DNA of 53,506 bases from positions 1-53,506 of the IMG/VR virus record IMGVR_UViG_3300027749_000141, one strand, 5' to 3'. Source of the stretch: a virus. Both the position numbers and the translations under genes were made by a program. This document shows positions 10,658 through 40,676 of this stretch, piece by piece; positions within the stretch are counted from its first letter, which is position 1, and the number at the start of each line of letters is the position of its first letter. The notes under the pieces are model-generated. The model did no database searches and was not told the DNA's origin. It worked only from the letters and a program-made list of their open reading frames with translations.

Positions 10658-11740
10658 ATGAGTAGAATCTTTCTTGTTGATTTAGAAGCAGTTGAGACAA
10701 GATACACAGGTGAGTGGAAAGACCACTTGCCTGCGGTTCTCACTAACCAAGGACATCATGTTACTATTATTTCTGGACCTAATGACATCCCTAGTGCAAC
10801 TACTCCAGGTGCCTTTCTTAATTTTGGTGGGACTAACATTTATAAGGCCAACCAAGTTGAACAAATCGGCCGATTATTTTGCAATGGTGACATCCAGCCA
10901 AATGATCATTTTATTTTTACTGATGCATGGCACCCCGGTATCATTAACTTAAAATACATGAGTGAGTTACTGGGTATTCCAGTAACTATACATGGCTTAT
11001 GGCATGCTGGCAGTTATGATCCACAAGATTTTTTAGGACGACTTTGTGGCCATCAGCCCTGGGTTGATAGTGCCGAACGCAGTTTCTTTTATGCGTTTGA
11101 TTATAACTACTTTGCTACAGATTTTCATATTGACATGTTCGCAGAGAATCTGCTTAGACTACAACCAGCTACTGTAAGAGCATGTTATATGAATGAAGAA
11201 AATCAAAAGTTTGTACGCACAGGTTGGCCTATGGAATATATGGCTACTGTGTTAGACCCATATAAAGGCACAGAGAAACGTGATCTTATATTATTTCCAC
11301 ATAGAATTGCACCCGAAAAACAAGTTGAAATTTTTAAAGACTTGCAATCACGGTTACCGCAATATGATTTTGTAATTTGTCAGGAACAACAGCTAACCAA
11401 AAGTGAATATCACAAATTACTAAGCGAAGCAAAAATTGTGTTTAGTGCAAACTTACAAGAAACATTAGGTATTAGTTGTTACGAAGGTGCATTACTTAAT
11501 GCAATACCAATGGTTCCTGATAGATTAAGTTATGTTGAAATGTACAATCTACATTTTAGATACCCGTCAGAATGGACTGAAAGTTTCGAATCATATCAAA
11601 CACACAGCGTTAAATTGTGCAATACTATTATTAACTATATAGAAACATATGACGAATTAGTTCCTGCTATAGAACATCAGGCACACTTCTTAACACAGCA
11701 GTTCTTTTCAGCAAATAAATTATATGACAACATCAAATGA
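10658..11740 (+). CDS. GT-B glycosyltransferase (GT4-like)
   Basis: 360 residues. The C-terminal half has the GT4-type donor site: FPHRIAPEKQVEIFKDL (about 212-228), then ETLGISCYEGALLNAIP (about 270-286), matching the E-x(7)-E region of retaining GT-B enzymes. The N-terminal half (IFLVDLEAVETRY, WHPGII, TIHGLWHAGSYDP) would form the acceptor domain. T4-like phages use GT-B enzymes to glucosylate DNA bases, but this protein is not clearly an alpha- or beta-glucosyltransferase homologue. Being in the dpdA-queE run, away from the surface glycosyltransferases at 22-28 kb, it might decorate DNA; this is speculative. Confidence 0.8.
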   Translation: MSRIFLVDLEAVETRYTGEWKDHLPAVLTNQGHHVTIISGPNDIPSATTPGAFLNFGGTNIYKANQVEQIGRLFCNGDIQPNDHFIFTDAWHPGIINLKYMSELLGIPVTIHGLWHAGSYDPQDFLGRLCGHQPWVDSAERSFFYAFDYNYFATDFHIDMFAENLLRLQPATVRACYMNEENQKFVRTGWPMEYMATVLDPYKGTEKRDLILFPHRIAPEKQVEIFKDLQSRLPQYDFVICQEQQLTKSEYHKLLSEAKIVFSANLQETLGISCYEGALLNAIPMVPDRLSYVEMYNLHFRYPSEWTESFESYQTHSVKLCNTIINYIETYDELVPAIEHQAHFLTQQFFSANKLYDNIK

Positions 11741-22348: not shown

Positions 22349-25303
22349 TTAATTAACAAATTCTTTAATATATTTAGATGATTCGAATTGTATTCGAAGC
22401 CAATCAAAATCATTAATCATTGCAAGTGCCAAAATATTTTTGGCATTTTTTTGACCGTAATCTTTGCCTGCGACAGCTCCGGCAATTGCAAAATTTCCAA
22501 ATTGTGTATCAACACCTACAGTACACCAGATATCTAATCGAATTTTTGATTCTTGATTAATCTGACCATCAATTAATCTACTGCTTAGTTTTACACATTC
22601 TCTAAATGCAGATTTCCAGGTATCGAATGGGCTAGTATCAAATGCAGTAATATTTGAAATTTCGGGCATAACTTTAAATTCTGAACTAATTGCAGTTGTC
22701 ATATCCGGAGAATATACATCAACATTTAATGTTAACTCTTTTGGAAGCAATTTGACGCCACCGTAACCGTAGACTAAATCGTTAATAGGGTTTTTACTAC
22801 TCCAGGTATACACAATGTTCATTTCATTTTTTGATATTATCATATCAAAATTAAAAGTTTCTTCAATAACTGCATCACCGTCTACTACCCAAAACATTGG
22901 CGATGATGCAAGTTTTGCTGCTGCGATATGTGCTTGATGAATACCTTTAACTCCGTGTACACGTTGAGCATACGGAAACCGTTTAACTAACTTGTCAAAA
23001 TTGGCATCGGCATTTGATTCGTTATAGCTAATAAAGACAATGTCGTACCAACCAGTTTTACTTGCAACAACTGGCCATTCCTTTCTATCAACTGGAAATC
23101 GGTGTTCAATTTCTTTTTGTGATAAAACTGCATGCGTCGAACATAAAAATACGCCATTATATGTATCGGAATTATGAACGAATGCGTGGTTTTGATATCT
23201 ATCAAAATCATACTTAGCGTTCTTTTTAGAAAAGAAAAGATCGAATTTAAAATCATCAACTGCTTTAATATTGCAAGATTCCATCCAAAACATTTCAGTA
23301 GTTGTATGATCAAGAGCATACAGGTATTCATCATACGAATCTATTACAAACCTATCATAGGATTTATATGTGCTTGCAACAACTGGCCATTCCTTTCTAT
23401 CAACTGGAAATCGGTGTTCAATTTCTTTTTGTGAAATGAAAGTATGTATCGAACATAAAAATATGCCATTATATGTTTGTTCGTCATCTTCTAAATGTAA
23501 AAATGCGTGATTTTGTTTTCTGTCATACTCGTATTTTGCGTTCTTTTTAGAAAAATACAAATCAAATTTAAAATCATCAACTGCGACAATATCTTTTGAT
23601 TCCATCCAAAATAATTCAGTAGTTGTATGTTCTAGTGCATACAGGTATTCATCATACGAATCTATTACAAACCTATCATAGGATTTATATGTGCTTGCTA
23701 CAATATCCCATTCCTTTCTATCAACTGGAAATCGGTGTTCAATTTCTTTTTGTGATAAAACTGCATGCGTCGAACATAAAAATATGCCATTATATGTTTG
23801 TTCGTCATCTTCTAAATGTAAAAATGCGTGGTTTTGATATCTATCAAAATCATACTTAGCGTTCTTTTTAGAAAAGAAAAGATCAAATTTAAAATCATCA
23901 ACTGCTTTAATATTGCAAGATTCCATCCAAAACATTTCAGTAGTTGCGGTAGCTAATGCCGAAAGATATCCATCATACGAGTCAATAACAAATCTATCAT
24001 AGGATTTATATGTGCTTGCTACAATATCCCATTCCTTTCTATCAACTGGAAATCGGTGTTCAATTTCTTTTTGTAATAATACTTCGTAGGTCGAACATAA
24101 AAATATGCCATTATATGTTTGTTCGTCATCTTCTAAATGTAAAAATGCGTGATTTTGTTTTCTGTCAAAATCATACTTAGCGTTCTTTTTAGAAAAATAC
24201 AAATCAAATTTAAAATCATCAACTGCGACAATATCTTTTGATTCCATCCAAAATAATTCAGTAGTTGTATGTTCTAGTGCATACAGGTATTCATCATACG
24301 AGTCAATAACAAATCTATCATAGGATTTATATGTGCTTGCTACAACTGGCCATTCCTTTCTATCAACTGGAAACCGATGTTCTATTTCTTTTTGTGATAA
24401 TACTTCGTAGGTCGAACATAAAAATATGCCATTATATGTTTGTTCGTCATCTTCTAAATGTAAAAATGCGTGATTTTGTTTTCTGTCGTAAAAATTGTTA
24501 AATTTAAAATGTAAATCAAATTTAAAATCATCAACTGCGACAATATCTTTTGATTCCATCCAAAATAATTCAGTAGTTGTATGTTCTAGTGCATACAGGT
24601 ATCCATCATACGAGTCAATAACAAATCTATCATAGGATTTATATGTACTTGCAACAATATCCCATTCCTTTCTATTAACTAGAAATCGATGTTCTATTTC
24701 GTTTTGTGTCGAAAAGGCATGCGTCGAACATAAAAATATGCCATTATATGTTTGTTCGTCATCTTCTAAATGTAAAAATGCGTGATTTTTGTCTCGATCA
24801 TAAAAATTGTTAAATTTAAAATGTAAATCAAATTTAAAATCATCAACTGCTTTAATATTGCGAGATTCCATCCAAAACATTTCAGTAGTTGTATGATCAA
24901 GAGCATACAGGTATTCATCATACGAGTCAATAACAAACCTATCATATTGCACAACTGTTGATGCGTTAATATTAACTTCATTGCTATTAAGATAAAACCT
25001 ATGATCTATTTCGTTTGTCGAAAGAAATCTTATCTTTGAAATTAAAATAACTCCAGTATATTCATTATCATTTTTAAATATATGAACATAATCTTTAGCC
25101 CATTCTTGGACTGTATAATCAAAGGAAAATGTATCTAAGATTGTAAGGTCCGAATATACAATCCAGAGAAATTTAGTAAACGAGTGGTGTTGTGCTGTAT
25201 TAATAGAAGCTGCACGTTTTGCTAACGGGTATTTTAACTTTAATTGTGCAAATTTATTAGTAGCATATTTTGAATCATCTGAAATAAAAAATATATCGTA
25301 CAT
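22349..25303 (-). CDS. GT-A glycosyltransferase with six tandem degenerate repeats
   Basis: 984 residues. The C-terminal domain (about 752-984) is a GT-A-like transferase: WYDIVFISYNESNADANFDK, RVHGVKGIHQAH and WVVDGDAV with a DxD-type metal site; it aligns with the 299-residue protein encoded upstream. An N-terminal unit (1-115, YDIFFISDDSKYA) is a degraded copy. Between them lie six repeats of 104-107 residues (YDRFVIDSYD ... FWMES ... VDDFKFDL ... EIEHRF), which look like truncated transferase modules with the DGD replaced by ES(K/R/C)(D/N). The repeats are thus unlikely to be catalytic and may bind glycan or act as spacers. ATG overlaps the stop of the upstream gene. Substrate unknown. 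Confidence 0.8.
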   Translation of the reverse strand: MYDIFFISDDSKYATNKFAQLKLKYPLAKRAASINTAQHHSFTKFLWIVYSDLTILDTFSFDYTVQEWAKDYVHIFKNDNEYTGVILISKIRFLSTNEIDHRFYLNSNEVNINASTVVQYDRFVIDSYDEYLYALDHTTTEMFWMESRNIKAVDDFKFDLHFKFNNFYDRDKNHAFLHLEDDEQTYNGIFLCSTHAFSTQNEIEHRFLVNRKEWDIVASTYKSYDRFVIDSYDGYLYALEHTTTELFWMESKDIVAVDDFKFDLHFKFNNFYDRKQNHAFLHLEDDEQTYNGIFLCSTYEVLSQKEIEHRFPVDRKEWPVVASTYKSYDRFVIDSYDEYLYALEHTTTELFWMESKDIVAVDDFKFDLYFSKKNAKYDFDRKQNHAFLHLEDDEQTYNGIFLCSTYEVLLQKEIEHRFPVDRKEWDIVASTYKSYDRFVIDSYDGYLSALATATTEMFWMESCNIKAVDDFKFDLFFSKKNAKYDFDRYQNHAFLHLEDDEQTYNGIFLCSTHAVLSQKEIEHRFPVDRKEWDIVASTYKSYDRFVIDSYDEYLYALEHTTTELFWMESKDIVAVDDFKFDLYFSKKNAKYEYDRKQNHAFLHLEDDEQTYNGIFLCSIHTFISQKEIEHRFPVDRKEWPVVASTYKSYDRFVIDSYDEYLYALDHTTTEMFWMESCNIKAVDDFKFDLFFSKKNAKYDFDRYQNHAFVHNSDTYNGVFLCSTHAVLSQKEIEHRFPVDRKEWPVVASKTGWYDIVFISYNESNADANFDKLVKRFPYAQRVHGVKGIHQAHIAAAKLASSPMFWVVDGDAVIEETFNFDMIISKNEMNIVYTWSSKNPINDLVYGYGGVKLLPKELTLNVDVYSPDMTTAISSEFKVMPEISNITAFDTSPFDTWKSAFRECVKLSSRLIDGQINQESKIRLDIWCTVGVDTQFGNFAIAGAVAGKDYGQKNAKNILALAMINDFDWLRIQFESSKYIKEFVN
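22427..22452 (+). terminator. Strong plus-strand terminator inside the 3' end of the convergent gene
   Basis: TGCCAAAA (22427-22434), loop TAT, TTTTGGCA (22438-22445), then seven T. It is oriented to stop transcription coming from thyX, about 90 nt past its stop codon, while the same bases encode residues near the end of the minus-strand repeat protein. Confidence 0.85.
23060..24960 (-). repeat. Six tandem coding repeats of 312-321 bp
   Basis: A marker sequence, CATTCCTTTCTAT (plus strand), recurs at 23076, 23388, 23709, 24030, 24351 and 24663, giving periods of 312, 321, 321, 321 and 312 bp. Units fall into two mixed subtypes (middle segment FWMESKDIVAVDD or FWMESCNIKAVDD), which alternate irregularly as expected from recombination between units. 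Large parts are near-identical at the DNA level. All units are in frame within one gene. Confidence 0.95.
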
Positions 25304-26202
25304 TAGTGTTTGATCCTATAACGTGGCGAATTATTGTAGACTGTTTTAAAAAATTTACTACCTTCGCTGTCAAGATACGAAACTGGTAATCCTAATTTTT
25401 CTCGTATTTCGTCACCAAGCAGTTCTCGACGTTTGCAAATTTGCACATTCCTCCAATCTTTATAGGTGTCTTCCCAGTAAGTTGTTAACCATTCAAAATC
25501 TCTAACATTTGCATAATCCCACGTTGAGTTAGCTGTTAGTAAACAACCTTCCCTTGCACCTATAATCGACCATTCACCGTTTTCAACATCGTTACCGACA
25601 TTACACCACACTAGCAATCTATGATAGTTTTGCCACCACACTGTAGTAAGATCATTAACTTTTGCACCTTGATCAAGACACATTTTAACACCTTCGCGAA
25701 ATCCTGCTCGCCATGCTTGAAACGGAGTTGCATTCGTATAACTAACAGAATAGTTTTCAGGAAACTGATAATAACGATCGTCAAAACAAAATTCAACTTT
25801 ACTTTTAATATCATTAGGATCTGCATTTTCGTGTGTTTGCATCTCATTAACAAATTTGCGAGTCCACATTTTTAACCCGCCATTACCATACATTAACCCG
25901 TTAACATGAATTTTCCCGCACCAACTAAATACGTGTTCAGATGTTAATCCTAATTTATCTAAATCAATTTCTAATCTTAAAAATGCAGGATCAATGATGT
26001 TATCAGCATCAACGGTTACAAAGTATTCAGTGTCACTTAACGCTGCGCATGCTTTATGGGCAGCGTCGCTGCCTTTTACACCGTGAACCCGTTTAGCCCA
26101 CGGAATTTTTTTAAGTAAATCGGCATAATTTTTTTCAGCATTTGGTTCATCGTAACTTAAGAATATAACATCTTGTTCAATAATTTTTATAATATTACTC
26201 AT
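25303..26202 (-). CDS. GT-A glycosyltransferase
   Basis: 299 residues. N-terminal DVIFLSYDEPNAEKNYADLL, RVHGVKGSDAAHKAC, then the DxD-containing FVTVDADNIIDPAF (about residues 57-70), with acceptor-side features W-rich FQAWRAGFREGVKM. Single-module relative of the C-terminal domain of the downstream repeat protein, probably the ancestral unit. It likely acts with the neighbouring transferases to build a glycan, perhaps on virion fibres or the host surface; acceptor unknown. Confidence 0.82.
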   Translation of the reverse strand: MSNIIKIIEQDVIFLSYDEPNAEKNYADLLKKIPWAKRVHGVKGSDAAHKACAALSDTEYFVTVDADNIIDPAFLRLEIDLDKLGLTSEHVFSWCGKIHVNGLMYGNGGLKMWTRKFVNEMQTHENADPNDIKSKVEFCFDDRYYQFPENYSVSYTNATPFQAWRAGFREGVKMCLDQGAKVNDLTTVWWQNYHRLLVWCNVGNDVENGEWSIIGAREGCLLTANSTWDYANVRDFEWLTTYWEDTYKDWRNVQICKRRELLGDEIREKLGLPVSYLDSEGSKFFKTVYNNSPRYRIKH

Positions 26203-26794
26203 GGGTAATTACTAATCCGTATGATTTTAACACTTTACTTGTTATCAATGTTATTTTATCAATATTTGTTTCGAACTTGCTTTCAAATGGGATATAAACA
26301 GAAGACGCTAACAGATCTGCTGGTTTAATTTTTATTGTTCGTATTAAAAAATCAAAATCATTTTCTAATGTAACAAAAAACACTAATACCTGCGAATATG
26401 ATTGCACGAACGGTCGACCTTCCTCTGCTACATTAAATACCCAATATTTGATTTTGTTATTCCATTCGACGATCAATCTAGTATCACTATCAGGTGAGTC
26501 ACATACCCAGGCCAATAAATCATTTTTAAATGAAATCGTCGGATTAAGTAACGAATATAATGAAATTTTATCACTGTCTTTATAACCAACTCTATAATTA
26601 GATAACGGTTCGATTCCGGATACTAGTGTGTAGTACTCGTCGTAATTTATTTCTAAAAAATTATCAAACGCAGTAGTAAACTCATTTGATACTAAAAATA
26701 TGCAGCCGGCATCATCATAATATACATAGTATTTTGGATCAACGGGCATCAATGCGGCGTTGGTTTTTTTAGATTTAGATTTACGTTTTGCCAT
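26195..26794 (-). CDS. Hypothetical protein within the glycosyltransferase cluster
   Basis: 199 residues. A basic N-terminus (MAKRKSKSKKTN) is followed by beta-rich sequence (YYVYYDDAGCIFLVSNEF, INYDEYYTLVSG). Overlaps both neighbours by 8-14 nt. No DxD or other transferase motif; possibly a structural or adaptor protein. Function unknown. Confidence 0.7.
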   Translation of the reverse strand: MAKRKSKSKKTNAALMPVDPKYYVYYDDAGCIFLVSNEFTTAFDNFLEINYDEYYTLVSGIEPLSNYRVGYKDSDKISLYSLLNPTISFKNDLLAWVCDSPDSDTRLIVEWNNKIKYWVFNVAEEGRPFVQSYSQVLVFFVTLENDFDFLIRTIKIKPADLLASSVYIPFESKFETNIDKITLITSKVLKSYGLVITHE

Positions 26795-27626
26795 GTGCTA
26801 ACTCTTTTAGTTGTGTTAATAATTTGTCATTTATAAAATCTTTTTCAACATAATGAAATAATTTTGATTGTTTAATATTGCCAACTACTAGGTCACCTTT
26901 TGAATTTAACATTGCAGGAACTACATCTTGCCATTTTTCCGGAGTCTCGTGCCATCCTTGCAATGCAGGTTTCATATGAATAAATTCCAACGGTGAAATT
27001 CGATCTACTGCAGTTTCTTGTAAACCTAGTAGTTCGATTGCAACAGCAACCGCAAGATCTATACTTAACCATTTTTGATAGTATGCCGGAGCAACTGTTG
27101 TCCATGCCCATTCCCAATTATAACAAACAAATTCGAGAACTTTATAAAAAGTGTATGCGCTGTCTGACTTTTTAAAATAGTGCAATGCCGAATATGGGTT
27201 TTGAAGGTGATTATAAGAAAACGCATTTCTATATACATTATCAATTACTGGTTCGAGTTTATAATTTTTAATTCTTGAACAAAATTTAAGATCATAGTTA
27301 CTACAGTATTGCCACCATTTACTAATGTCTTCTAATAGCAACATATCAGCGTCTAACACAATTGTTTCATCATACGGAGTAATATGAAAAACCTTCCATC
27401 TATTTTCAACCTTCCACTCTGAGTCTACTGCAGCATCATTCCACGGTATTGCTATAATTTTATCAAAGACTGCGCTATACTCATCGCTAACTAAATCATT
27501 AGTCATTATTGATATCTTATTATACGTATTTTGACTAAATTTTATCGATAGTGCAAGTGCATACGCCTGCTTGATATAATCAACCGATGGTGTATTTTGT
27601 GCAACTACTAAAAATCCTTTAGACAT
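26781..27626 (-). CDS. Glycosyltransferase, GT8/glycogenin-like
   Basis: 281 residues. N-terminus GFLVVAQNTPSVDYIKQAYA with SIKFSQNTYNKISIMTND, then the metal-site strand ETIVLDADMLLLEDISKWW (DAD at about 92-94). The GT8-type order (sugar-nucleotide strand, DxD, later His-containing segments such as FIHMKPALQGWHE) is visible. Paralogue of the next gene upstream. Likely cytoplasmic. Confidence 0.75.
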   Translation of the reverse strand: MSKGFLVVAQNTPSVDYIKQAYALALSIKFSQNTYNKISIMTNDLVSDEYSAVFDKIIAIPWNDAAVDSEWKVENRWKVFHITPYDETIVLDADMLLLEDISKWWQYCSNYDLKFCSRIKNYKLEPVIDNVYRNAFSYNHLQNPYSALHYFKKSDSAYTFYKVLEFVCYNWEWAWTTVAPAYYQKWLSIDLAVAVAIELLGLQETAVDRISPLEFIHMKPALQGWHETPEKWQDVVPAMLNSKGDLVVGNIKQSKLFHYVEKDFINDKLLTQLKELAHGKT

Positions 27627-28464
27627 TACTCACCTCATCAATATATCGATTTAGACTTATCTTATTCATTACATGTACATCAATACCAGTTGTTTTTGCA
27701 GCTATATATTCACCTAGACAATTCTCTTTTTCTACTAAAAATTGCATTTTGTTATCTTTTGCATTAATTAATAGATCTTTATCTGTAATATATGTCATTG
27801 TTCCCGGTAATTCAACTGCGAACTCTCCATTAGTCTTACCGTTCATTATATGAATTGCAATGCTAAATGCAAAATCGTTTCTAAATAACTTAGTTTCAAT
27901 GCTGTACAACACTCTAAAATATTCCCAATTTTCTCTAATATAAAAAATTAAATTAAAAAAAGACTCAATAATTGCTGATTTTTTAAACACAAACACAGTT
28001 GCCCAATAAAATGGAATAGAATATTGATTAATCCTTTCAAATTCAAATGTTGGTCGCCATTCTGCAAGATCAAAACTTTTTTTATAAATTTGAAAATCGT
28101 AATCTTGGTCTAAAGACATGTTTAGTATTGGCGAATTTAATATATAATCGCAGTCTAACACTATAGTAGTGTCGTACGGTGTTAACTCGTAAGCCAGGTA
28201 TCTTGAAAAATTTTTCCATTCTGATAAAATAGATGACAGTGTGCCATCGAACATAACTCTCTTTTGTTCAGTACTTTGGTCGATTTCAATTATTTGATCA
28301 AAATTATGATCAGGATACGAAGTTTCTAACCAATTTTTAGAATCAGTCACGATCGACACTGGGATATTTAAATATAATCGAACACGCGCTGCGCAAAAAA
28401 TTGCCATTTTAACATAATCTATATCAGTGTTATTTTGTGCAAATATCAAAGCACCGGTAGTCAT
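27619..28464 (-). CDS. Glycosyltransferase-like protein, paralogue of neighbour
   Basis: 281 residues, the same length and plan as the downstream gene: GALIFAQNNTDIDYVKMAIF at the start and TTIVLDCDYILNSPILNMS, where DCD takes the DxD place. The later acceptor region (DVHVMNKISLNRYIDEVSN) is divergent. Tandem duplication followed by divergence is the simplest reading. Overlaps neighbours by 4-8 nt. Confidence 0.7.
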   Translation of the reverse strand: MTTGALIFAQNNTDIDYVKMAIFCAARVRLYLNIPVSIVTDSKNWLETSYPDHNFDQIIEIDQSTEQKRVMFDGTLSSILSEWKNFSRYLAYELTPYDTTIVLDCDYILNSPILNMSLDQDYDFQIYKKSFDLAEWRPTFEFERINQYSIPFYWATVFVFKKSAIIESFFNLIFYIRENWEYFRVLYSIETKLFRNDFAFSIAIHIMNGKTNGEFAVELPGTMTYITDKDLLINAKDNKMQFLVEKENCLGEYIAAKTTGIDVHVMNKISLNRYIDEVSNV

Positions 28465-29806: not shown

Positions 29807-29822
29807 GATTTTGATATCGTTA
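29803..29822 (-). other. Hairpin at the end of the adhesin gene
   Basis: TAACGAT (29803-29809) and ATCGTTA (29816-29822) form a 7-bp stem with a 6-nt loop. On the minus strand the stem starts with the TAA stop codon of the 1815-residue gene. No U-tract follows; it may protect or process the mRNA end. Confidence 0.45.
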
Positions 29823-32800
29823 TCCCCATTTTAATGTAATGCTTCCGGTACCGCCAGGAAAATGATACGTACCACCGTTTGTCGCAACTGCAGCAATGCA
29901 TCCGCCCGGAACAAGCGATTGTCCAGTTTGTCCAGAATATGCGCCAGTGTCACCACTATTATACGTACCACCCATGCCACCGAATGGGTGGCCGGCGCCA
30001 CCGCCACCTGGTCCACCACCATCGCCTATTCTAAATGGTCCAGGGCCGCCATTTACACTAGCAGAATATACTGCAGGTACGATTGAATCAAGCCCGCTAC
30101 CGTTTAATCCTGCGCCACCGCCACCGCCACCGCCTGCAGCAACTACAATAGGTACACCGTCTCTTAATATAAACGATGCTGCGCCGCCGCCGCCACCTGC
30201 TCCAGAACTACCTGTAGGCCCGGCATTTCCGCCGATCCCGCCAGCATACAACCCGCCTGCACCAAGTCCGCCGACTCCGGCTCCTTTATTTGTTACTTGA
30301 TTAGAACCAAAATTTCCGCCTCCGCCAACTCCGATTGTTAAAACTTCGCTCGGCGTAACAGCTAGTGTACCTGACACACGAGCACCTGAATACCCGCCAT
30401 GACCTGCTTTATTATCATCTTTTCCGCCTGATCCGCCGCCTGCGCCATCTACTGTTATTTGAATTGAAGTAATACCGCGCGGTACGGTCCAACTATATTG
30501 ATTAGGCTGGGCAAATACTTGTGCCCCTGCCGGAGTTTTTGACGTGTCGCTAATTGTAATAGTATTACTAGTTCTAACTTTGTTAGTGTACATACTATCA
30601 GTGTATAATTCGACTTTAAAACTTTCAGGTCCTTCAGTGTCTTTATCTTCTGCAATTGGTAAAATTATTAATCCGTTACCTAAACTGTCAATAGTAACCG
30701 TGTCATCTAAAGATGTAAGTCCTGAAAAATCTGCAAGATTAATTTCGGTTCCGCTATCATTTACAATTCTCCAATATAAAACAGTATCCATATCAATCGT
30801 AGTAGTTGCAATATTAAATGTAACTGTAGGTTGAGTAGTAGTATACGAAGTAGTCGATGCAGTAGTGTCGTAAATAACAAGTGCAACACCGTCGCTACCG
30901 TGCCCGTCACCTGCATAAGTAACCGTAACAGTGTGTTCACCTGCAGATAAAGTTACACTAGTTTGAACTCCAGATCCGCCGTAGGTAAAACCAGTATGCG
31001 CAACCTGCGTGCTATCAACTAAAAACGTACCTGATTGGTCAGATCCATGTTGGAAAATATATTCTCCTGTATGAGGGAATTTTACTTTCCAATTTGCAGT
31101 ACTTCCACCTTTAAAATATACTGCATTTGCATTCATAAATTTACCCCACACATCGCCCGTAAGTCCGTGTACCGTAATTCCGGCAAGATCTGAACCTGCG
31201 GTTTTCATGTTCCATATTTGTTCACGAACAACTGTCGTTGTTACATGCGCAGTTGTAGTTGCTTCGTCTACATTGTTCGGAGATGATGAAACCCCGGTTG
31301 TTCCTAAAATTGCATACGTTGGATAATCCTTAGATGTATCATTAATAGTAATTGATTGGGTCGAAGCAATTATATTACTAGCAGCTGGCAATGCGTTAGC
31401 AACATCGACTGTAAATAACTCTGTACCTTCTGTCAAATGATCAGTTAACACATTAAATGCCCAAACCATAGAAGCACCACTTGTTAAAAACCCGTAATTA
31501 CTGTCAAGTGTTGGTCCAGAAACATACGCTAAATCACTCCAGCCAGCAAGACCGCTAATATTAAGATAGCGTTGTACCCCGTTATACGCATTTGTTATAG
31601 ATAATGTAACAGTAATCGTCGTAGTCGTAGTTTCGTTAACAATCAACGGAGTTGCAGAGATTGAATAGACAGGATCTCTAGAGGTATCTAACACAATCAA
31701 AGACGGATTAGATGCAAGCAACGATCCTGTTTTTGACCCACTTCTTATTTGCATAGCAAAGGTTTCAGTTGTTTCAGAAATATGATCTTCTACTATTTGC
31801 CATTGCCATACCATCGTCGGACCACTAACGATAAAAGATTGTTCTGTTTCGTTTAACGTCGGTCCACTAAATTTAGTCACATCAGCAAACGAAATTTTTC
31901 CTGGTCCAGTAGCTAACGAATAATATAATTTTGTTCCGATTGGTACTCCAATATTAGTAAACGTTACTAAAATTAATCTATTCGTTGTTTCATTAATCGA
32001 TGCTGAAGGTATAGTAACTGCCGATGCTGTTAACGAGTAGTTCGGATCTTGTGACAAATCTAAGATAGTCGTAGGCGGTTCGTCGTTGTTATCTCCGAGG
32101 CTAGATGCAACTACCTGCCCAGTATAACTTTTAGTTCGTAATTCAATTGCAAATACTTCAGTGTCTTCAGATTTTTGATCAGCACGTAATGCTCTGACAA
32201 TTTTAGGATCAGGTTGAGTACTATCAACTGTTACTGTTCCGCGCATGTCAGGGTTAGTAAGGTAATCAATAAAATCAGCTGCTTCGACACCATTTGTTTC
32301 ATATAATTTTGTTGTCCAGTATAATACGGTCCCATTCGGAATACCAGTTGTATGCACTGTATAATTAACTTGGCTAATGCCCTCACCGACGATATTTGCA
32401 TCAGGCGTAATACTGAACGTGCTTGCTGAATCTAGTATCGAAATAGTTTTACTTGTTTTAACTACATCACCCGAATATCGATTAGTTCGCAATGCAATCG
32501 CAAATTTTTTATTTTCAACGTTTTTATCAAATTGGGCAGCTCTGACGATTAAATCTAACGCTTCGCCCGTTGGTCCGATATACACCCTACCGCGCATATC
32601 TGGATTCGTATCGTAATCTGTAAAGTCAGCAGCAGTTACTTCATTAATATCGCTAGACACTGACACAGTAGTCCAGTATAATACAGTATCCACTGGAACA
32701 TTTTCTGTTGAAACTTTAAAAGAAATACCATTCGCGCCCTCTGTTATTGAACTAACAGATTCATCTGGAAACGGTACAATTGAATAAGTAGCAGTCGGGT

Positions 32801-35267
32801 TCGGTTGTGAATTAACAGGTAAATTTGCCTCGATTTTAATAAATGGGCTATTTTGTTCAAATTTACTGTTACCTTCTTCCGGATACCCTCCGGAATAAAA
32901 TTTAATTTGAAAATACTCTGCATCTTCGTATACATTGTCTTGTCTAATCGTGCGTTCAAAACTGTAAACTCCAGACGAATTGAGATTAAATGACCCTCGC
33001 ATTAACGGATTTGTAGCATAATCAGAAAAATCTTCATTAGAAATTCCTGTACCGAATGCGTCTGTTTTCCAGTATAACTTATTTCCGGCTGCAGATGTAC
33101 CGCCATTAATTGTAAAAGTTACAATTTTAGTCTCCGCCACAACTAACGGATCTGCGATAACAGTATAAACACTAGCAGGCACCGTAGTATCGATCGGAGC
33201 AGTAGGCGGTGGGTCAGAAATTGTAACATAAGGACTGTTCTGTACAAGTTTACTAGTCGAAACTGCTTCGTCTGGGAATCCTCCAGTATATAACTTAATT
33301 CGAAAATATTCATCACCTTCTAATGATTTGTCAGTATTAATTGTTCGAGTTAAATCATAAGTACCGTTTGAATTAAGAACAACGGTGCCGCGCATGAGTG
33401 GATTTGTTGCATAGTCAAAGAAGTCTTCTTTAGTTAATTCAGTACCATATGATTCGGTGGTCCAATAAACTCGGACTCCGGCTGCAGATGTACCGCCATC
33501 TATGCTAAATGTAACAGTATCTCCTTCGATTAATTTAGAAGGAGCTGCACTTATTGTATAGTTACTAGTAATAACCGGATCAGCAGTTAAATTAATAATT
33601 TGAACATCAGTACTAGTTTTTACCAATTTACTTGTCGATGCAGCCGGATACCCACCAGTATATAAATTAATCCGAAAATATTCTTTACTTTCAACTACAG
33701 TATCAAGTCGTGCAGTTCTCAATAATTCATAACTTCCCAATGCATTAAGATCAAAATACCCTTGCATATCTGGATTAGTTTGATAATCAGTAAAATCTTC
33801 AAAGGTAATACCTGCACCTTCAGTTGTCCAGTACAATCTGGTACCAACAGGGGCATTTGTAGAAGTAATTTTAAAAGTTACCGGTGTTTGCCCTTCTGAT
33901 ATTATAGTCGGTATTGGTTCAATATTAAACGTCGGTAAAAATGCATCAGTAATAGCTATATCCTGGCTTTCAATAAGAAACTTACTGTTAACATTAACGT
34001 CATCAGGGTATCCGTTACTATATAATTTAATTCGAAATTTTTCAGTTCCTTCTGGAATCGTACCATCTATTCTTGCAGAACGGCTAATATACCCTTTTCC
34101 TTGATTGTCAATCTGAACAGTGCCGCGCATTAATAAATTCGTAGCGTAATCAGAAAAATCTTCAGGTGTTATGTTTGCACCAGTGGTTGTCCAGTATAAA
34201 ATTGTACCGTTGTAAACAAACGTCGTAGCAATTGTAAAATTAACCGGTACACTACCTTCAGTTATTACTAGTGGTGAAATTGATTCAAAACTATATGTAG
34301 GAGTAGGTTCAACCGGTGGGACAGTAATAATGACCGATGACCCCGGAGCCGGTGCTGAAATTGTTGCAGTTATATCGTTCCCGTCGGCTACTGCTCCGTC
34401 TACTAGCGCACTTTTAGCTGCAGGAATCGGTACTTCTACATTCGATCCAGATGCATGATACGATTTTAATATACTAGTTAACGTTCCGTCAATGTTAACA
34501 TCTCCGCCGATCGTCGATAAATCGCGAAACTCAATAGTAAAAATTATTTGAGCAAGCGATGTTCCGGTTTTTGCAAGAATTCTGTAATCATTAGGAGTGT
34601 AAGAGTCAGTAGTAACCGATTGAAAAATCACTTGGTTAGATGCAGTTAATGTCAAATATCCGATTGCTGATCCAATACCTGCACCAGTTGCTGCAGTTAT
34701 GACATGATTAAAGGTTACGGTACCTATAGAACTTAAAAGATTTGTCCACGACGCATTCTTAATATCTGCAGTACCGCTAGTACGAGAAGAAGTAAACTCA
34801 AAGGTACTTCCGGTATTAAAATACCACCTTGCTGCAGATACACTACTAAATGTAACTACTATTAAGTGGGTAGCAACGCCGTTCCACGCCGACGTGCGCG
34901 TACCAACTACTAAATTTTCTCGTGTCGCTTGCGAACTAGGCGGGGTAATAAGCCGATTAGTTTCTGCAGCAGTTAACACTGATGATAATGTTAGAAAGTA
35001 ATTGTTTACTACTGTAGTTGACGCAGGTGTTAACAGCGGAATACTAGCCGATTCGTTAACACCTGTTTGATGTTGGCGAATTTTTAACAAATCAAGTCTA
35101 AGATTATTCCAATCATTGGCAAGAATTGTCGTGCGTGGTAAAATTTGACTACTGTATACGTTTTGGCCGTAACCGTAGGTATCTTCACCTGTTCCTAAAA
35201 TCTGAGAAATTTTTGACTGGATAACATTATAATCGTTATGAACAACCGGGGTATTTTGACCAGACAT
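29820..35267 (-). CDS. Large tail adhesin: Calx-beta repeats, lectin-like insert and glycine-rich tip
   Basis: 1815 residues. Residues 1 to about 290 match the neighbouring 293-residue virion protein and probably dock to the virion. Then come about nine Calx-beta-type repeats (pattern EGxxxVxFxI ... LYWTT ... EDF(S/T)DY ... NPxMRG ... E(Y/K)FRI), roughly residues 310-1575. The ninth is interrupted by a PA14/lectin-like sandwich (WKVKFPHTGEYIFQHGSD, near 31.0 kb). The last about 240 residues begin YSWTVPRGITSIQITVDGAG and are very glycine-rich (VVAAGGGGGGGAG), recalling polyglycine-II sandwich adhesins such as Salmonella phage S16 gp38. It likely recognises the host surface. Receptor unknown. 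Confidence 0.82.
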   Translation of the reverse strand: MSGQNTPVVHNDYNVIQSKISQILGTGEDTYGYGQNVYSSQILPRTTILANDWNNLRLDLLKIRQHQTGVNESASIPLLTPASTTVVNNYFLTLSSVLTAAETNRLITPPSSQATRENLVVGTRTSAWNGVATHLIVVTFSSVSAARWYFNTGSTFEFTSSRTSGTADIKNASWTNLLSSIGTVTFNHVITAATGAGIGSAIGYLTLTASNQVIFQSVTTDSYTPNDYRILAKTGTSLAQIIFTIEFRDLSTIGGDVNIDGTLTSILKSYHASGSNVEVPIPAAKSALVDGAVADGNDITATISAPAPGSSVIITVPPVEPTPTYSFESISPLVITEGSVPVNFTIATTFVYNGTILYWTTTGANITPEDFSDYATNLLMRGTVQIDNQGKGYISRSARIDGTIPEGTEKFRIKLYSNGYPDDVNVNSKFLIESQDIAITDAFLPTFNIEPIPTIISEGQTPVTFKITSTNAPVGTRLYWTTEGAGITFEDFTDYQTNPDMQGYFDLNALGSYELLRTARLDTVVESKEYFRINLYTGGYPAASTSKLVKTSTDVQIINLTADPVITSNYTISAAPSKLIEGDTVTFSIDGGTSAAGVRVYWTTESYGTELTKEDFFDYATNPLMRGTVVLNSNGTYDLTRTINTDKSLEGDEYFRIKLYTGGFPDEAVSTSKLVQNSPYVTISDPPPTAPIDTTVPASVYTVIADPLVVAETKIVTFTINGGTSAAGNKLYWKTDAFGTGISNEDFSDYATNPLMRGSFNLNSSGVYSFERTIRQDNVYEDAEYFQIKFYSGGYPEEGNSKFEQNSPFIKIEANLPVNSQPNPTATYSIVPFPDESVSSITEGANGISFKVSTENVPVDTVLYWTTVSVSSDINEVTAADFTDYDTNPDMRGRVYIGPTGEALDLIVRAAQFDKNVENKKFAIALRTNRYSGDVVKTSKTISILDSASTFSITPDANIVGEGISQVNYTVHTTGIPNGTVLYWTTKLYETNGVEAADFIDYLTNPDMRGTVTVDSTQPDPKIVRALRADQKSEDTEVFAIELRTKSYTGQVVASSLGDNNDEPPTTILDLSQDPNYSLTASAVTIPSASINETTNRLILVTFTNIGVPIGTKLYYSLATGPGKISFADVTKFSGPTLNETEQSFIVSGPTMVWQWQIVEDHISETTETFAMQIRSGSKTGSLLASNPSLIVLDTSRDPVYSISATPLIVNETTTTTITVTLSITNAYNGVQRYLNISGLAGWSDLAYVSGPTLDSNYGFLTSGASMVWAFNVLTDHLTEGTELFTVDVANALPAASNIIASTQSITINDTSKDYPTYAILGTTGVSSSPNNVDEATTTAHVTTTVVREQIWNMKTAGSDLAGITVHGLTGDVWGKFMNANAVYFKGGSTANWKVKFPHTGEYIFQHGSDQSGTFLVDSTQVAHTGFTYGGSGVQTSVTLSAGEHTVTVTYAGDGHGSDGVALVIYDTTASTTSYTTTQPTVTFNIATTTIDMDTVLYWRIVNDSGTEINLADFSGLTSLDDTVTIDSLGNGLIILPIAEDKDTEGPESFKVELYTDSMYTNKVRTSNTITISDTSKTPAGAQVFAQPNQYSWTVPRGITSIQITVDGAGGGSGGKDDNKAGHGGYSGARVSGTLAVTPSEVLTIGVGGGGNFGSNQVTNKGAGVGGLGAGGLYAGGIGGNAGPTGSSGAGGGGGAASFILRDGVPIVVAAGGGGGGGAGLNGSGLDSIVPAVYSASVNGGPGPFRIGDGGGPGGGGAGHPFGGMGGTYNSGDTGAYSGQTGQSLVPGGCIAAVATNGGTYHFPGGTGSITLKWG

Positions 35268-35277
35268 GTAAATCCTC

Positions 35278-36798
35278 TTATAGTATTACTGCTTCGACAA
35301 TTTTAACTTCTAAGTCTTCACTAGATTCAAGCGCAATTGCAAATATAAAATTAGTGTGTGCCGAAACATAAGTAGTCGATTCTGCAACACCAGGAATTGT
35401 CGATGCAATTAAATAATCTCCTTTGTTAACAGCGCCTGTTACCTTAACTGGCACTCTGCCTTTTAATGCAATATATGTTCCACCTACTAATCCAGTATTC
35501 ATCATATATGCAGGATTTTCGGATATCGTTCCTAGTGGTCTAGAACCAAATGTTGCAGCAGTGACTTCTTTATCGCCTCCGACTTTAACTACGGTGCCAA
35601 CTTCATAATCTTCATCTGCTAGATATTTTTCCGCTAAGTCAGCATAATACGCAGCAGTTGCAGTTCCTACAAAAAAGTTTGCCTTAATAGATCCTGCAGT
35701 TATATTAACACCACTAATTGTTTCATCTGCTGATGTTCTTGCAACAATTGTACCTGATGATGCAGCAGTACTTGCTATTCGGAAAGTTCCGCCTACGTTT
35801 AGGGAATTTGCTTGATCAGCAGTTCCGGACATTGAATCTGCAAATATTCGATTATATTTTAAAGTTGAAGAGCCAATGTTTGATGTAAGATGAATGCCAG
35901 GAAGTAAGTCTAAACCAACTAACTTTAACGGGGTATTCGTAGTAACGCCTATTGTTGTTTTAAATACTATAGTATCACTTAACTTATTGTGAATAGTCGG
36001 AACTAAGCTACTGTCGTTATAAACCCACAACCGCCGATTCGGTAACCCAACAGAAAAACCAACATCACCAAATTTAACTAAAGTATCAAATTCCAAATCA
36101 CTATTTAACACGAAATCACCCGCAACATATCCGCCTAATCTGTCTGCATTAGTTGCAGTTCCCCAAAATCTATGAGAACTCTGTGTTTGCCCTGGAAATG
36201 TATCAGTATGAGTATTGTATAAAGTTATACCCTGTCTAATAACGGTAAATCCGGTAATACTACTATTTGAATCTAATTCATACGCATCGTCGGCACTAAT
36301 AACAAAAATCGTTGCATCATTTACAATTGCTTCGATTATTGCATGGGTCGCTCCGCCGGTTCCGATAGTAGCAGTTACTGTTCGTGAACGCATTTGAGTT
36401 AAATGTGAACCGGTACCTTGTGGTCCAACTAAAACAAAACTAGAACCATCATATGCTTTTAATTGTTTATTGATCGAGTCCCACCACAAATCGCCCTCGG
36501 TTAAATTTGCAGGAGATATATTACTAACTTCTGATCCGCCCGCAATACGCCACCGCACGCTATCAAAAAATTTTAATTTCTTTGTCGCAGTGTCAAACCA
36601 TAGCTGGCCAGTAACTGCCCTCGAAGGTGCTGTCGAATTTGCAAAATTTTCAAGTAGCCATACAAAATTTTCATTTTGAGCTTCGCCGTAACCTGCATAA
36701 TTTTTACCGATTAGTTTAATATCTAAACTAGTGTTTATTGTACCGTCTTCTACTATTGCAACTTGTTCTCTATTATAATTGTTGATGATATATGACAT
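35278..36798 (-). CDS. Tail-fibre protein with shared N-terminal module
   Basis: 506 residues. Residues 1-125 contain the module IGKNYAGYGEAQNENFVWLL ... GQLWFD ... L(K/R)xYDG ... GDLWWDSINKQLKAY ... LVGPQ, also present in the next two genes upstream. The C-terminal domain (about 385-506) has ADLAEKYLADEDYEVGTVVK and GTISENPAYMMN, a C-terminal type I know from cyanophage fibres, possibly related to fibre-processing domains, though no catalytic residue can be named. A TATAAATA late-type promoter lies 24 nt upstream of the ATG. Confidence 0.8.
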   Translation of the reverse strand: MSYIINNYNREQVAIVEDGTINTSLDIKLIGKNYAGYGEAQNENFVWLLENFANSTAPSRAVTGQLWFDTATKKLKFFDSVRWRIAGGSEVSNISPANLTEGDLWWDSINKQLKAYDGSSFVLVGPQGTGSHLTQMRSRTVTATIGTGGATHAIIEAIVNDATIFVISADDAYELDSNSSITGFTVIRQGITLYNTHTDTFPGQTQSSHRFWGTATNADRLGGYVAGDFVLNSDLEFDTLVKFGDVGFSVGLPNRRLWVYNDSSLVPTIHNKLSDTIVFKTTIGVTTNTPLKLVGLDLLPGIHLTSNIGSSTLKYNRIFADSMSGTADQANSLNVGGTFRIASTAASSGTIVARTSADETISGVNITAGSIKANFFVGTATAAYYADLAEKYLADEDYEVGTVVKVGGDKEVTAATFGSRPLGTISENPAYMMNTGLVGGTYIALKGRVPVKVTGAVNKGDYLIASTIPGVAESTTYVSAHTNFIFAIALESSEDLEVKIVEAVIL

Positions 36799-36821
36799 CT
36801 CAGTTATTCCTCAGTATCTAG

Positions 36822-36829
36822 TATTTATA
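36822..36829 (-). promoter_or_regulatory. T4-type late promoter TATAAATA
   Basis: Minus-strand TATAAATACTA matches the T4 late -10 consensus completely, 24 nt upstream of the fibre gene ATG at 36798 and followed by a GAGGAA Shine-Dalgarno. In T4 such promoters need gp33/gp55 and the gp45 clamp; gp45 is present here, the other two were not seen in the window. Confidence 0.8.
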
Positions 36830-36831
36830 TG

Positions 36832-38502
36832 TTATAGATCGTTTTGATAAACCCAAACGCCACTACGCAATTCATAGGCTCGGATTGTTAGTACTCCACT
36901 TGCTGTGCAACATGCTCGGCAAATTGGACCATTAACACCTGCAACCGAATGCTCTGCAGGCGGAAATAATTTATTTAAATATATCGAAGCAATTTGAAGA
37001 ATTGTTAGGCCAGTAGTATCCAATGAAACTACTAACGCTTGTTGTTTAACTGTATTATATAATGTAAGAAAATTAACTGCGTCATTATCATCTGTAGGAG
37101 TTGCAAGATTTGTAATTTTTTTACTACTCACATCCACAGTGCCTGTACCTTTTGGTTCTAATATAATAGTGCCGTTTGCTTGCGAATTATTAACATAACT
37201 AATTGTTGTATCGTTGACATTTAAATTGTCAACTTGTAACGAAGTTAGCGTGCCTATACTAGAAAGACCAGGAGCCGATGTAATTGTCGATCCTAATGCA
37301 GAAGAAGTTAATACTGCAGTGTTGTTAATTTTATATGTTTTACCCGTAACTAGATTAAACGATTCTGACGAAGTCCAACTTAGTGATAATAAGTCCCAAG
37401 TTAACGTTTTATTGATATCAGTACCTGCAGCAATACTAATCCCTGATCCGTCTGCAGTAGTGTTAGTTGGGGTTGTAGTTTTTGCTAACAGGATAACTTT
37501 ATCTGAAATTTCTAAATTAGTAGTGTTAATTGAGGTCAATGCACCGATAACGTTTAAACTTCCTTGAATAACAACATCTCCATTAACATCCAATGTTGCT
37601 GTGGGATTATTTTTAAATATGCCCACTCTTTGATTAACAGTGTTAACATGTATACTAGGTAATAATTGATTATTATGTAACACATTAATTTGAAAATTTT
37701 GATCAGCTGAATTTGAATTAATTTTACATATTAAATCATCAACTACAATTTCAGTATTACTATTTGTCCCTAAAATTAACGGGGTTCTTTTTTGTATAGA
37801 CAATGTGCCAACAATTGCTGAATCTGCGTTATTTGCAACAACTGCATCAGCAGTTACAACTGTGCCCGACGAGTCGACTAATGATTCTGCACGAGTTGCA
37901 GTAGTGTTAAATTTAATACCTGCGTATTCGCTCGCGTTAAAACCAATTTTAATAATTCCAGAATACCCTGAAATATTAACAGAAGGGGTAAACATAGTTT
38001 TACTAAATATACCAATTAACGAAGTCGAAATATACAATAATAATATAGTATGATTAATGTTACTAGTGTCCAGCACATCAACAGTTTTAAATCCTGAGGT
38101 ACCTTGTTGTGCGTTATATTGCGGTCCGATTAATACCGGCGAAATACCATTGTAAAAATAAAGCTGTTGGCGGACACTGTCAATCCAAAAATCGCCTGCA
38201 GATATTGAACTCGGTGGGGTATTTTGATAAAACGCGCCACCGCTAACTCTAAAAGTCAACCCGTCATACACTTTTAATCGGTTATCAGTTAGGTCAAACC
38301 AAAGCTGCCCAGTAATTGGTTTATTAGGCTGCGCAGTACTTGAAAAATTCTCTAATAAATGAATAAAATTTTCATTTAAAAATTCTCCATACGAGCTAAA
38401 ATTTTTACCAATTAATGTCAAATCTGTTGTTGTCTGATCAATTACCCCGTCGATAATCTCTGTTATTTTTGACCCATCGGTCTTATTTAAAATGTAACTC
38501 AT
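36832..38502 (-). CDS. Tail-fibre protein with shared N-terminal module
   Basis: 556 residues. N-terminal module (IGKNFSSYGEFLNENFIHLL ... GQLWFDLTDNRLKVYDG ... GDFWIDSVRQQLYFY ... LIGPQ) as in its two neighbours. The middle has beta-helical or trimeric fibre features (TLDVNGDVVIQGSLNVIGAL; TNLEISDKVILLA), and the C-terminus carries a CRACC cysteine cluster before GVLTIRAYELRSGVWVYQND. One-base overlap with the collar-domain gene upstream, so probably co-expressed. Confidence 0.8.
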   Translation of the reverse strand: MSYILNKTDGSKITEIIDGVIDQTTTDLTLIGKNFSSYGEFLNENFIHLLENFSSTAQPNKPITGQLWFDLTDNRLKVYDGLTFRVSGGAFYQNTPPSSISAGDFWIDSVRQQLYFYNGISPVLIGPQYNAQQGTSGFKTVDVLDTSNINHTILLLYISTSLIGIFSKTMFTPSVNISGYSGIIKIGFNASEYAGIKFNTTATRAESLVDSSGTVVTADAVVANNADSAIVGTLSIQKRTPLILGTNSNTEIVVDDLICKINSNSADQNFQINVLHNNQLLPSIHVNTVNQRVGIFKNNPTATLDVNGDVVIQGSLNVIGALTSINTTNLEISDKVILLAKTTTPTNTTADGSGISIAAGTDINKTLTWDLLSLSWTSSESFNLVTGKTYKINNTAVLTSSALGSTITSAPGLSSIGTLTSLQVDNLNVNDTTISYVNNSQANGTIILEPKGTGTVDVSSKKITNLATPTDDNDAVNFLTLYNTVKQQALVVSLDTTGLTILQIASIYLNKLFPPAEHSVAGVNGPICRACCTASGVLTIRAYELRSGVWVYQNDL

Positions 38503-40676
38503 TATAATACACCAGTAAAAATTATATAATTAATAGTTTGATATGGATTCATCGTAGTAAAAGATGTACCTAACGAAGGCGTATCAACTCCACCTGTACG
38601 GCTAACGCCGCGCCCTGCAGCACCTGCTGCAAAACTTGCGCCAACAACACCATTTACATCAGTAAGTGACCCACCTGCAATACTACCTGCATAATAGTCA
38701 GCAGTGTCGTTTGATAATTTGTGACCATGTTCAGGAAGATTTGAAATCGATAACGAACTCGAATCAGCACCAGATCCTGCACCTGTTATATCTGCCGATG
38801 CGTCTGATACTCGATTTGCCGAATCAGATGAATTAAAACCGCCATTTCGTCGACCGCCTGCATTAATTTCTGTACCGTCGCCAGTGGTTACAGTTAAATT
38901 ATTATCCATGTTGTCACGCCCTAAAGGGAAACGACCTCTTAGATCAGGTAATGCAAACGTACCTGCACCTAATAATAAAGTAATATCGCGATATTTGATG
39001 CCAATCACATTAAATAATTCAATGTATGTTGATTGCTTTACTTCGCTGCCGTCACACAACAAATAACCTGCTGGAATAGTATCACCGGCAAATGGAAAAA
39101 TTGCACCAACCGGAACAAACGGAACTTGCGATAATAATGCTGATTTAGTTGTTCGCTTCAGCCCGCCATTTGTACCGCTTCGATATATTAAAAGCTGGTC
39201 GGTCAACGAGGTTGTAGACACCAAGTCTTTTTCAGTAATAATAGATTGGCTGATTGTAGTAACAAATGTTTCAGTCCCTGTTTGCGATTGGCCGTTAAAA
39301 CTAATGCTGTTACTTTCTACGTCGCCTGTTAAATTAAAAACTGTTGGACTTGCCAGTGCGCTTGCGGTTCCACTAAGTGATCCTAAAAAATTTCCAGTAA
39401 ATGTTCCTTGAAATGTAGATGTTGCATCACCGACTGATTGTGCGTAGATGTTTCTAAATTTACGAGTTGCAGAGCCGATATCGTATAAGGGCAAAAGTGA
39501 TGCTGAATTAGTATACCCCGGAAGGATTACGCTACCGCCAATTGGATCATTATTAGAATTTAAATTATTAAGAATTACATTACCGGAAAAAGTAACCGAT
39601 CCATTAAATCTCGATTGTTTTGCAACCGACAAGCCGCCTGCTGTTATAATACTGCCAGTACCTGTTGAAGTTGCATCAGTAGTCCCTGAAACAATAATAT
39701 TACTGCTAACTGCAATGTTTCCGATAACGTCTAACACTTCCTGTGGATCGTTATTATTTGGTCCTACTCCGATGTATGTATTTGATTTTATATACATTGC
39801 AGTTGTAACTACTGAATTATCATTAACCCTAATATCAATACTTTTTCCGGACGTTTTTGAAAATAAACTAGTACTAGTAGTGTCATTCGAAATATTAAAA
39901 CTTAAATCACTACCTAGACTAATACCTGCGTCTGCCCTGACACTAAGAGGAACGTCAAGAGGAGTAGTAACATCAGTCCTCACAAAGTTTGTAGACTTAA
40001 CTGATACATTATTAACTATCAATGCGTCTGCATTAGTTGATGTTCCCCAAAATTTTGTCGGTGTTATTAGCGAATCACTATCAACTGTGCTTAGGTTAAT
40101 CCCTTGATTAATAATCGGAAATCCAATAATTACGGTTTTTGGTGTAAAAGAAGTTTTACTTACAATTGCAATTCGATTATTTTGTGAAAACAGCGTTATT
40201 ACCGAATATTCATTGTTGTTAATGTCTGTAATAATTTCAATATCGGGACCTGTTTTTAACCCTGCACTATATTGAGGACCGACCAATAGCCAAGTCGATC
40301 CTGAAAATATATATAATTGTTGATTAACAGTGTCGACCCACAAATCACCACTGTTACTATTTGCAACTAGTGGTGCAGTTGTTGCTTTCTTTACAGAGCC
40401 AGCAGGTGACCAGGTAGTACCGTCGTACACTTTAAGAAGATTAATACCTGCAGAATTATCATACCATAGCTGGCCTTCAATAGGATTTGCCGGTGGAACA
40501 TTTTTTGCAAAATTTTCAAGAATATGTAAAAAATTTTCTGCAAAAACAGTGCCGTATCCTGCATAATTTTTTCCAACAAAAGTCAAACTAGTTTGGGTGT
40601 TAAGCGATTGGTCGTCAACTGTTAATGCTGGTTTTGCAGGGTTAGTTAATTCAGTAAATTTAACTTGATATGACAT
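38502..40676 (-). CDS. Short tail fibre-like protein with tail-collar domain (gp12-like)
   Basis: 724 residues. N-terminal module shared with the two downstream fibres (VGKNYAGYGTVFAENFLHIL ... GQLWYD ... GDLWVDTVNQQLYIF ... LVGPQ). Repetitive beta-structured shaft, then a Phage Tail Collar domain at about 535-605 (PVGAIFPFAGDTIPAGYLLC, FALPDLRGRFPLG) and a His-containing tip (NLPEHGHKL) typical of gp12-like receptor-binding ends that bind metal. Ends MNPYQTINYIIFTG, the normal collar C-terminus. Likely adsorption organelle of the baseplate. Confidence 0.88.
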   Translation of the reverse strand: MSYQVKFTELTNPAKPALTVDDQSLNTQTSLTFVGKNYAGYGTVFAENFLHILENFAKNVPPANPIEGQLWYDNSAGINLLKVYDGTTWSPAGSVKKATTAPLVANSNSGDLWVDTVNQQLYIFSGSTWLLVGPQYSAGLKTGPDIEIITDINNNEYSVITLFSQNNRIAIVSKTSFTPKTVIIGFPIINQGINLSTVDSDSLITPTKFWGTSTNADALIVNNVSVKSTNFVRTDVTTPLDVPLSVRADAGISLGSDLSFNISNDTTSTSLFSKTSGKSIDIRVNDNSVVTTAMYIKSNTYIGVGPNNNDPQEVLDVIGNIAVSSNIIVSGTTDATSTGTGSIITAGGLSVAKQSRFNGSVTFSGNVILNNLNSNNDPIGGSVILPGYTNSASLLPLYDIGSATRKFRNIYAQSVGDATSTFQGTFTGNFLGSLSGTASALASPTVFNLTGDVESNSISFNGQSQTGTETFVTTISQSIITEKDLVSTTSLTDQLLIYRSGTNGGLKRTTKSALLSQVPFVPVGAIFPFAGDTIPAGYLLCDGSEVKQSTYIELFNVIGIKYRDITLLLGAGTFALPDLRGRFPLGRDNMDNNLTVTTGDGTEINAGGRRNGGFNSSDSANRVSDASADITGAGSGADSSSLSISNLPEHGHKLSNDTADYYAGSIAGGSLTDVNGVVGASFAAGAAGRGVSRTGGVDTPSLGTSFTTMNPYQTINYIIFTGVL

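Follow-up and report, generated by a model that had tools for sequence, protein, structure and literature searches.

Why should a bacteriophage glycosyltransferase carry a row of closely similar segments ahead of its catalytic domain? The question is raised by a 984-residue open reading frame in a 53,506-nucleotide stretch of DNA (the window) from an uncultured aquatic phage. The parts of this gene, referred to here as the array gene, are as follows.

22349–25303, minus strand: array glycosyltransferase gene, 984 aa, a single open frame (start 25303, stop 22349–22351)
24947–25300, minus strand: divergent N-terminal pseudo-transferase unit, aa 2–119, alpha1-beta2 segment retained, without DxD
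24635–24946, minus strand: unit 1, aa 120–223, 104 aa (repeat and profile analysis)
24323–24634, minus strand: unit 2, aa 224–327, 104 aa (repeat and profile analysis)
24002–24322, minus strand: unit 3, aa 328–434, 107 aa (modelled with AF2)
23681–24001, minus strand: unit 4, aa 435–541, 107 aa (repeat and profile analysis)
23360–23680, minus strand: unit 5, aa 542–648, 107 aa (repeat and profile analysis)
23048–23359, minus strand: unit 6, aa 649–752, 104 aa, a boundary unit conserved in position, the ortholog of the last unit in relative L001
22352–23047, minus strand: GT-A-like transferase domain, aa 753–984 (alignment, AF2, Foldseek)
22874–22882, minus strand: transferase DGD (DxD metal site), aa 808–810, D56/D58 invariant in alignment A2

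Six direct repeats of 312 or 321 nt lie head to tail between positions 23048 and 24946 (TRF score 2447, 87% matches, period 321), and their products show 71–91% pairwise amino acid identity; chance is excluded as the origin of this pattern. The first-pass annotation had counted six units of 104–107 residues, and these stand at 104, 104, 107, 107, 107 and 104 aa, but a seventh, N-terminal unit had been missed. Residues 2–119 match the unit profile (E 4e-7) and are 42% identical to unit-free transferases (blastp, E 3e-22).

The C-terminal domain (residues 753–975) carries the motif VDGDA, which includes the two invariant aspartates, and its fold is GT-A by AF2 modelling and a Foldseek search of the PDB. 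Among the PDB fold matches are the fucosyltransferase WrtF, the PBCV-1 capsid glycosyltransferase 2p6w and the K4 chondroitin polymerase; these enzymes have the fold and the DxD in common with the domain, but no row of shortened copies of their own domain was found in any of them.

The units themselves are degenerate homologues of this transferase domain. The profile of the internal units aligns with that of the transferases over 68 columns across the DxD region (hhalign, probability 97.6, E 4e-12), and 257 of 370 internal units match transferases below 1e-3, shuffled units serving as a control that gave one such match. N-terminal units of relatives are up to 50% identical to transferases that have no units (E 7e-27), 82 of 95 matching them below 1e-5. 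An AF2 model of unit 3 (pLDDT 96.8, pTM 0.88) has as its best Foldseek matches in the PDB GT-A enzymes and related nucleotidyltransferases (best E 5e-3, probability 0.99), and its viral structural matches are largely annotated as glycosyltransferases. The predicted fold of a single unit is thus GT-A-like, as the first-pass annotation had supposed. A model of two units plus the transferase domain likewise has GT-A enzymes as its top PDB matches (best E 3e-5).

That annotation also described the units as truncated relatives of the transferase. The relationship holds by hhalign, Foldseek and blastp, but simple truncation does not, an internal segment having been lost as well. Secondary-structure comparison shows that a unit retains beta1, the helix preceding the DxD strand, that strand with its hairpin, the two strands that follow, a helix and a long strand (E95-105, equivalent to transferase E335-345 of the model); it has lost the internal alpha1-beta2 segment and every helix beyond model residue 345. 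Because the N-terminal unit still carries the alpha1-beta2 segment, it looks like an earlier evolutionary state.

Could the units be catalytic? The DGD had been described as replaced, and this is so throughout: WxxDxD, which the transferase domains retain, is absent from all of the roughly 380 unique units in relatives, the position of the first Asp being occupied mostly by S, P, W or T. The same units are also without the C-terminal helical third, including the conserved FNTDPFxTWRSAFRE region, and therefore have neither the DxD nor the complete domain of a full GT-A glycosyltransferase. Some GT-A enzymes, such as bacterial GT6, are metal-independent (PMC3961637), which would allow several catalytic sites per protein; with both the DxD and the whole C-terminal third gone, we regard active, metal-independent units as very improbable. 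The array protein combines one active-looking transferase domain with several folded, inactive-looking relatives of it.

Loss of the active site has not been followed by general decay. Across 385 units from 67 arrays, the residues Y12, F24, H58, G72, L75, E86 and S103 show a within-array mismatch of only 0–0.03, and many positions neighbouring them differ in 60–80% of within-array pairs, which indicates that the folds have been kept. The invariant residues argue for a common structural or binding role, which on sequence grounds would be compatible with binding, with a ruler or with a scaffold. Variable positions cluster in loops only modestly by count, and we have given this no evidential weight. 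One may ask whether the array is simply a by-product of unequal recombination, tolerated as long as frame and fold are kept and having no function that depends on unit number. The relaxed dN/dS of the units (about 0.3, compared with 0.09 for the transferase) fits such an origin, as it would fit weak constraint or a passive spacer; near-invariance at seven positions speaks against it.

Recombination between units is well supported. Synonymous divergence (dS) between the window units is 0.14–0.73, less than that between the window and L001, its nearest complete relative, where the transferase domain stands at 1.31, thyX at 0.91 and the neighbouring transferase at 0.74; the middle units were therefore homogenised, or amplified, after these phages had diverged. 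Unit 6 is the exception, being the ortholog of L001 unit 4 (dN 0.083) and sharing with it HNSD---TYNG and KTGW. That boundary units stay distinct from a homogenised middle is a further point against purely passive expansion. For the six units, a PHI-type test returns p 0.0005.

Compared with the window, the near-identical phages L002 and L004 carry 13 and 9 differences within the array, and in every case (13/13 and 9/9, or 22/22) the differing base occurs in another unit. The converted patches lie in unit 5 of L002 and unit 1 of L004. With a chance of 0.11 per site of matching another unit, this corresponds to p 5e-13 and 3e-9, values which treat the sites as independent although those of clustered patches are not. 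The density of differences in L002 and L004 is 1.7% and 4.1% in the array and 0.1–0.4% in thyX and the transferase-cassette genes alongside; L003 departs from the window at a single base out of 6108. L002 and L004 are metagenomic contigs and the three contigs nearest the window all end inside the array, so that some of the strain patches could be assembly chimeras. A DNA-pattern scan for further near-identical arrays recovered only two contigs already known. Taken with the PHI result, within-gene homogenisation and the patch bases bear out the earlier proposal that recombination shuffled the unit subtypes. A diversity-generating retroelement was considered and rejected: the substitutions (T>A, C>T, C>G, G>A) are not adenine-specific, and array differences equal to other units of the same array count against template-repeat mutagenesis.

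Unit number, the invariance of which would have told against the first-pass annotation, varies widely. Among 293 unique complete family ORFs, 198 have no units and the others have 1–9, 11, 14 or 16, the longest array protein (1855 aa, 16 units) being that of L115. L158 and L154 have 8 and 9 units at 99.6% transferase identity, and L199 and L196 have 3 and 4 at 96.4%; L001 has four internal units against six in the window. Assembly collapse was rejected as an unlikely source of the L154/L158 and L196/L199 gaps, because different units are mostly only 42–67% identical in DNA, whereas orthologous units of L154 and L158 are 82–98% identical. In a quick tree with many weak forks, unit number shifts even inside clades, and forms without units turn up among the others at several places, so that some phages can dispense with the array. 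Such free change in a tree that mixes the two forms is what passive expansion would produce, and together with the relaxed dN/dS it keeps some weight on a passive origin; but arrays recur across many lineages and extend to 16 units, and on balance we consider it unlikely that the array is a functionless by-product.

Several further arrangements were seen among the relatives. The lengths of the 16 units of L115 (635–6199) cycle by three (104, 100, 97), which suggests that three-unit blocks were duplicated. No transferase domain was detected in the array ORFs of L127, L129, L131 and L138 (7 units) or of L117–L121, L102 and L104 (4 units), some of which adjoin a separate transferase ORF. A more divergent GT-like segment (DYVWVVDKDIEV...FPWHYKP...KVRLVPT) lies ahead of the array at the N-termini of L165, L124, L164 and L244, and in L009 and L012. 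In L253 (3051–4637) the neighbouring transferase is fused to the array-family transferase, without units; this contig is binned as a Neisseriaceae MAG and appears phage-like.

What the enzyme acts upon may be indicated by its neighbours, listed here.

25303–26202, minus strand: unit-free second transferase belonging to the same superfamily, 33% identical to the array transferase domain (E 1.7e-31)
26195–28464, minus strand: rest of the overlapping cassette, a 199-aa ORF and two GT8-like ORFs of 281 aa each (GT8 by inspection)
29820–40676, minus strand: tail-fibre-like genes, with PHROG tail-fibre and virion matches at 35278–40676 and weaker ones at 29820–35267

The array gene closes an overlapping, one-strand cassette (28464–22349) that runs through the two GT8-like ORFs, then the 199-aa ORF and then the second transferase, the last base of whose stop codon is the first base of the array gene's ATG. 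The cassette order is repeated in L001, L187, L226 and L182, and the second transferase is the most common gene immediately upstream (46 of 95 scorable loci). Because the cassette lies just downstream of tail-fibre-like genes, the array gene is likely to help decorate virion fibres or the host surface. In other lineages it is found among radical SAM/SPASM genes; several radical SAM or SPASM-like genes adjoin it in L145, L132, L128, L226 and L186, which suggests a larger modification cluster. Elsewhere in the window, 10658–11740 encodes a protein with homologues, 41–50% identical, in large phages of Pseudomonas and Sinorhizobium (PA5oct, Phosso), some of them annotated as glycosyltransferases. 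A very long ORF of at least 4056 aa (41335–53505) runs off the window and has a sub-threshold CBM_5_12 match near one end.

The explanation that we favour, although we hold it to be about evenly balanced between right and wrong, is that the catalytic domain of a GT-A-fold glycosyltransferase is preceded by a duplicated, truncated, recombining array of pseudo-transferases which would serve as a non-catalytic scaffold for binding or positioning the acceptor. A GT-type domain would have been duplicated and truncated to give tandem pseudo-transferase modules ahead of the catalytic domain. The inactive units may bind the acceptor, a glycan or glycoprotein of the fibre or the cell surface, or position it for the one active domain, with unit number and subtype setting reach, avidity or product length. 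The enzyme would probably work with the neighbouring transferases in decorating virion fibres.

Alternatively, stiff units might fix how far the active domain lies from an anchor, and hence the choice of site or the glycan length, without binding any sugar. The units abut without linkers, the model of two units plus transferase is confident throughout (pLDDT 92), and glycan synthesis offers precedents in PglH (PMC5792488) and WbdD (PMC3482155), where a non-catalytic element sets glycan length. The likeness of the array to these is by analogy only, however, since their ruler is a helix or coiled coil and the present array consists of copy-variable pseudoenzyme units. Several conserved polar residues exceed the obvious needs of a spacer and no anchor was identified, so that we judge a pure length ruler improbable. 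An extension of the scaffold reading, namely that phages tune the glycosyltransferase through the copy number and subtype of its dead core, and that an array varied by recombination and by gain or loss of units sets virion glycan length or acceptor choice and thereby acts as a variation device driven by recombination, we offer tentatively and consider rather unlikely.

How does this family compare with known systems? No curated family covering the array protein was found in Pfam, PHROG or NCBIfam, where matches were weak or marginal (Beta-prop_ACSF4, for example, scores 35 bits against a cutoff of 133). Pfam Glycos_transf_2 (PF00535) gives marginal matches in 7 of 45 family members, the best relative (E 0.0011) falling short of the curated cutoff, and none to the window protein. 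A PDB search by sequence returned nothing credible. In tblastn searches of the cultured phages in INPHARED, the whole protein, the transferase domain, the neighbouring transferase and a unit-free relative had no match; another gene of the window did match cultured phages.

Tandem domain arrays are already known from phages. The BACON repeats of crAss-like phages arose by sequential duplication, are tail-associated and have a suspected carbohydrate role (PMC6949934). They sit with tail proteins, whereas the present array sits with an enzyme and descends from a catalytic domain of the kind that this enzyme itself carries; there is no Pfam match to a BACON domain in the array protein. Moraphages, large aquatic uncultured phages, have several core glycosyltransferases (PMC12619734), for which no mention of repeats was found; this comparison is one of published descriptions. 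Glycan rulers are likewise known, but within the part of the literature covered we found no paper describing an array of dead copies of an enzyme's own core.

The array gene thus belongs to a common yet unnamed gene family of aquatic phages. Its series from 0 to 16 units, with intermediates, shows an enzyme domain duplicated, truncated, deprived of its active site and retained as a recombining repeat, and the family allows a direct test of whether the copy number of a pseudoenzyme tunes glycosylation. It may represent a route by which phages vary the glycans of the virion or the host surface while leaving the catalytic domain unchanged.
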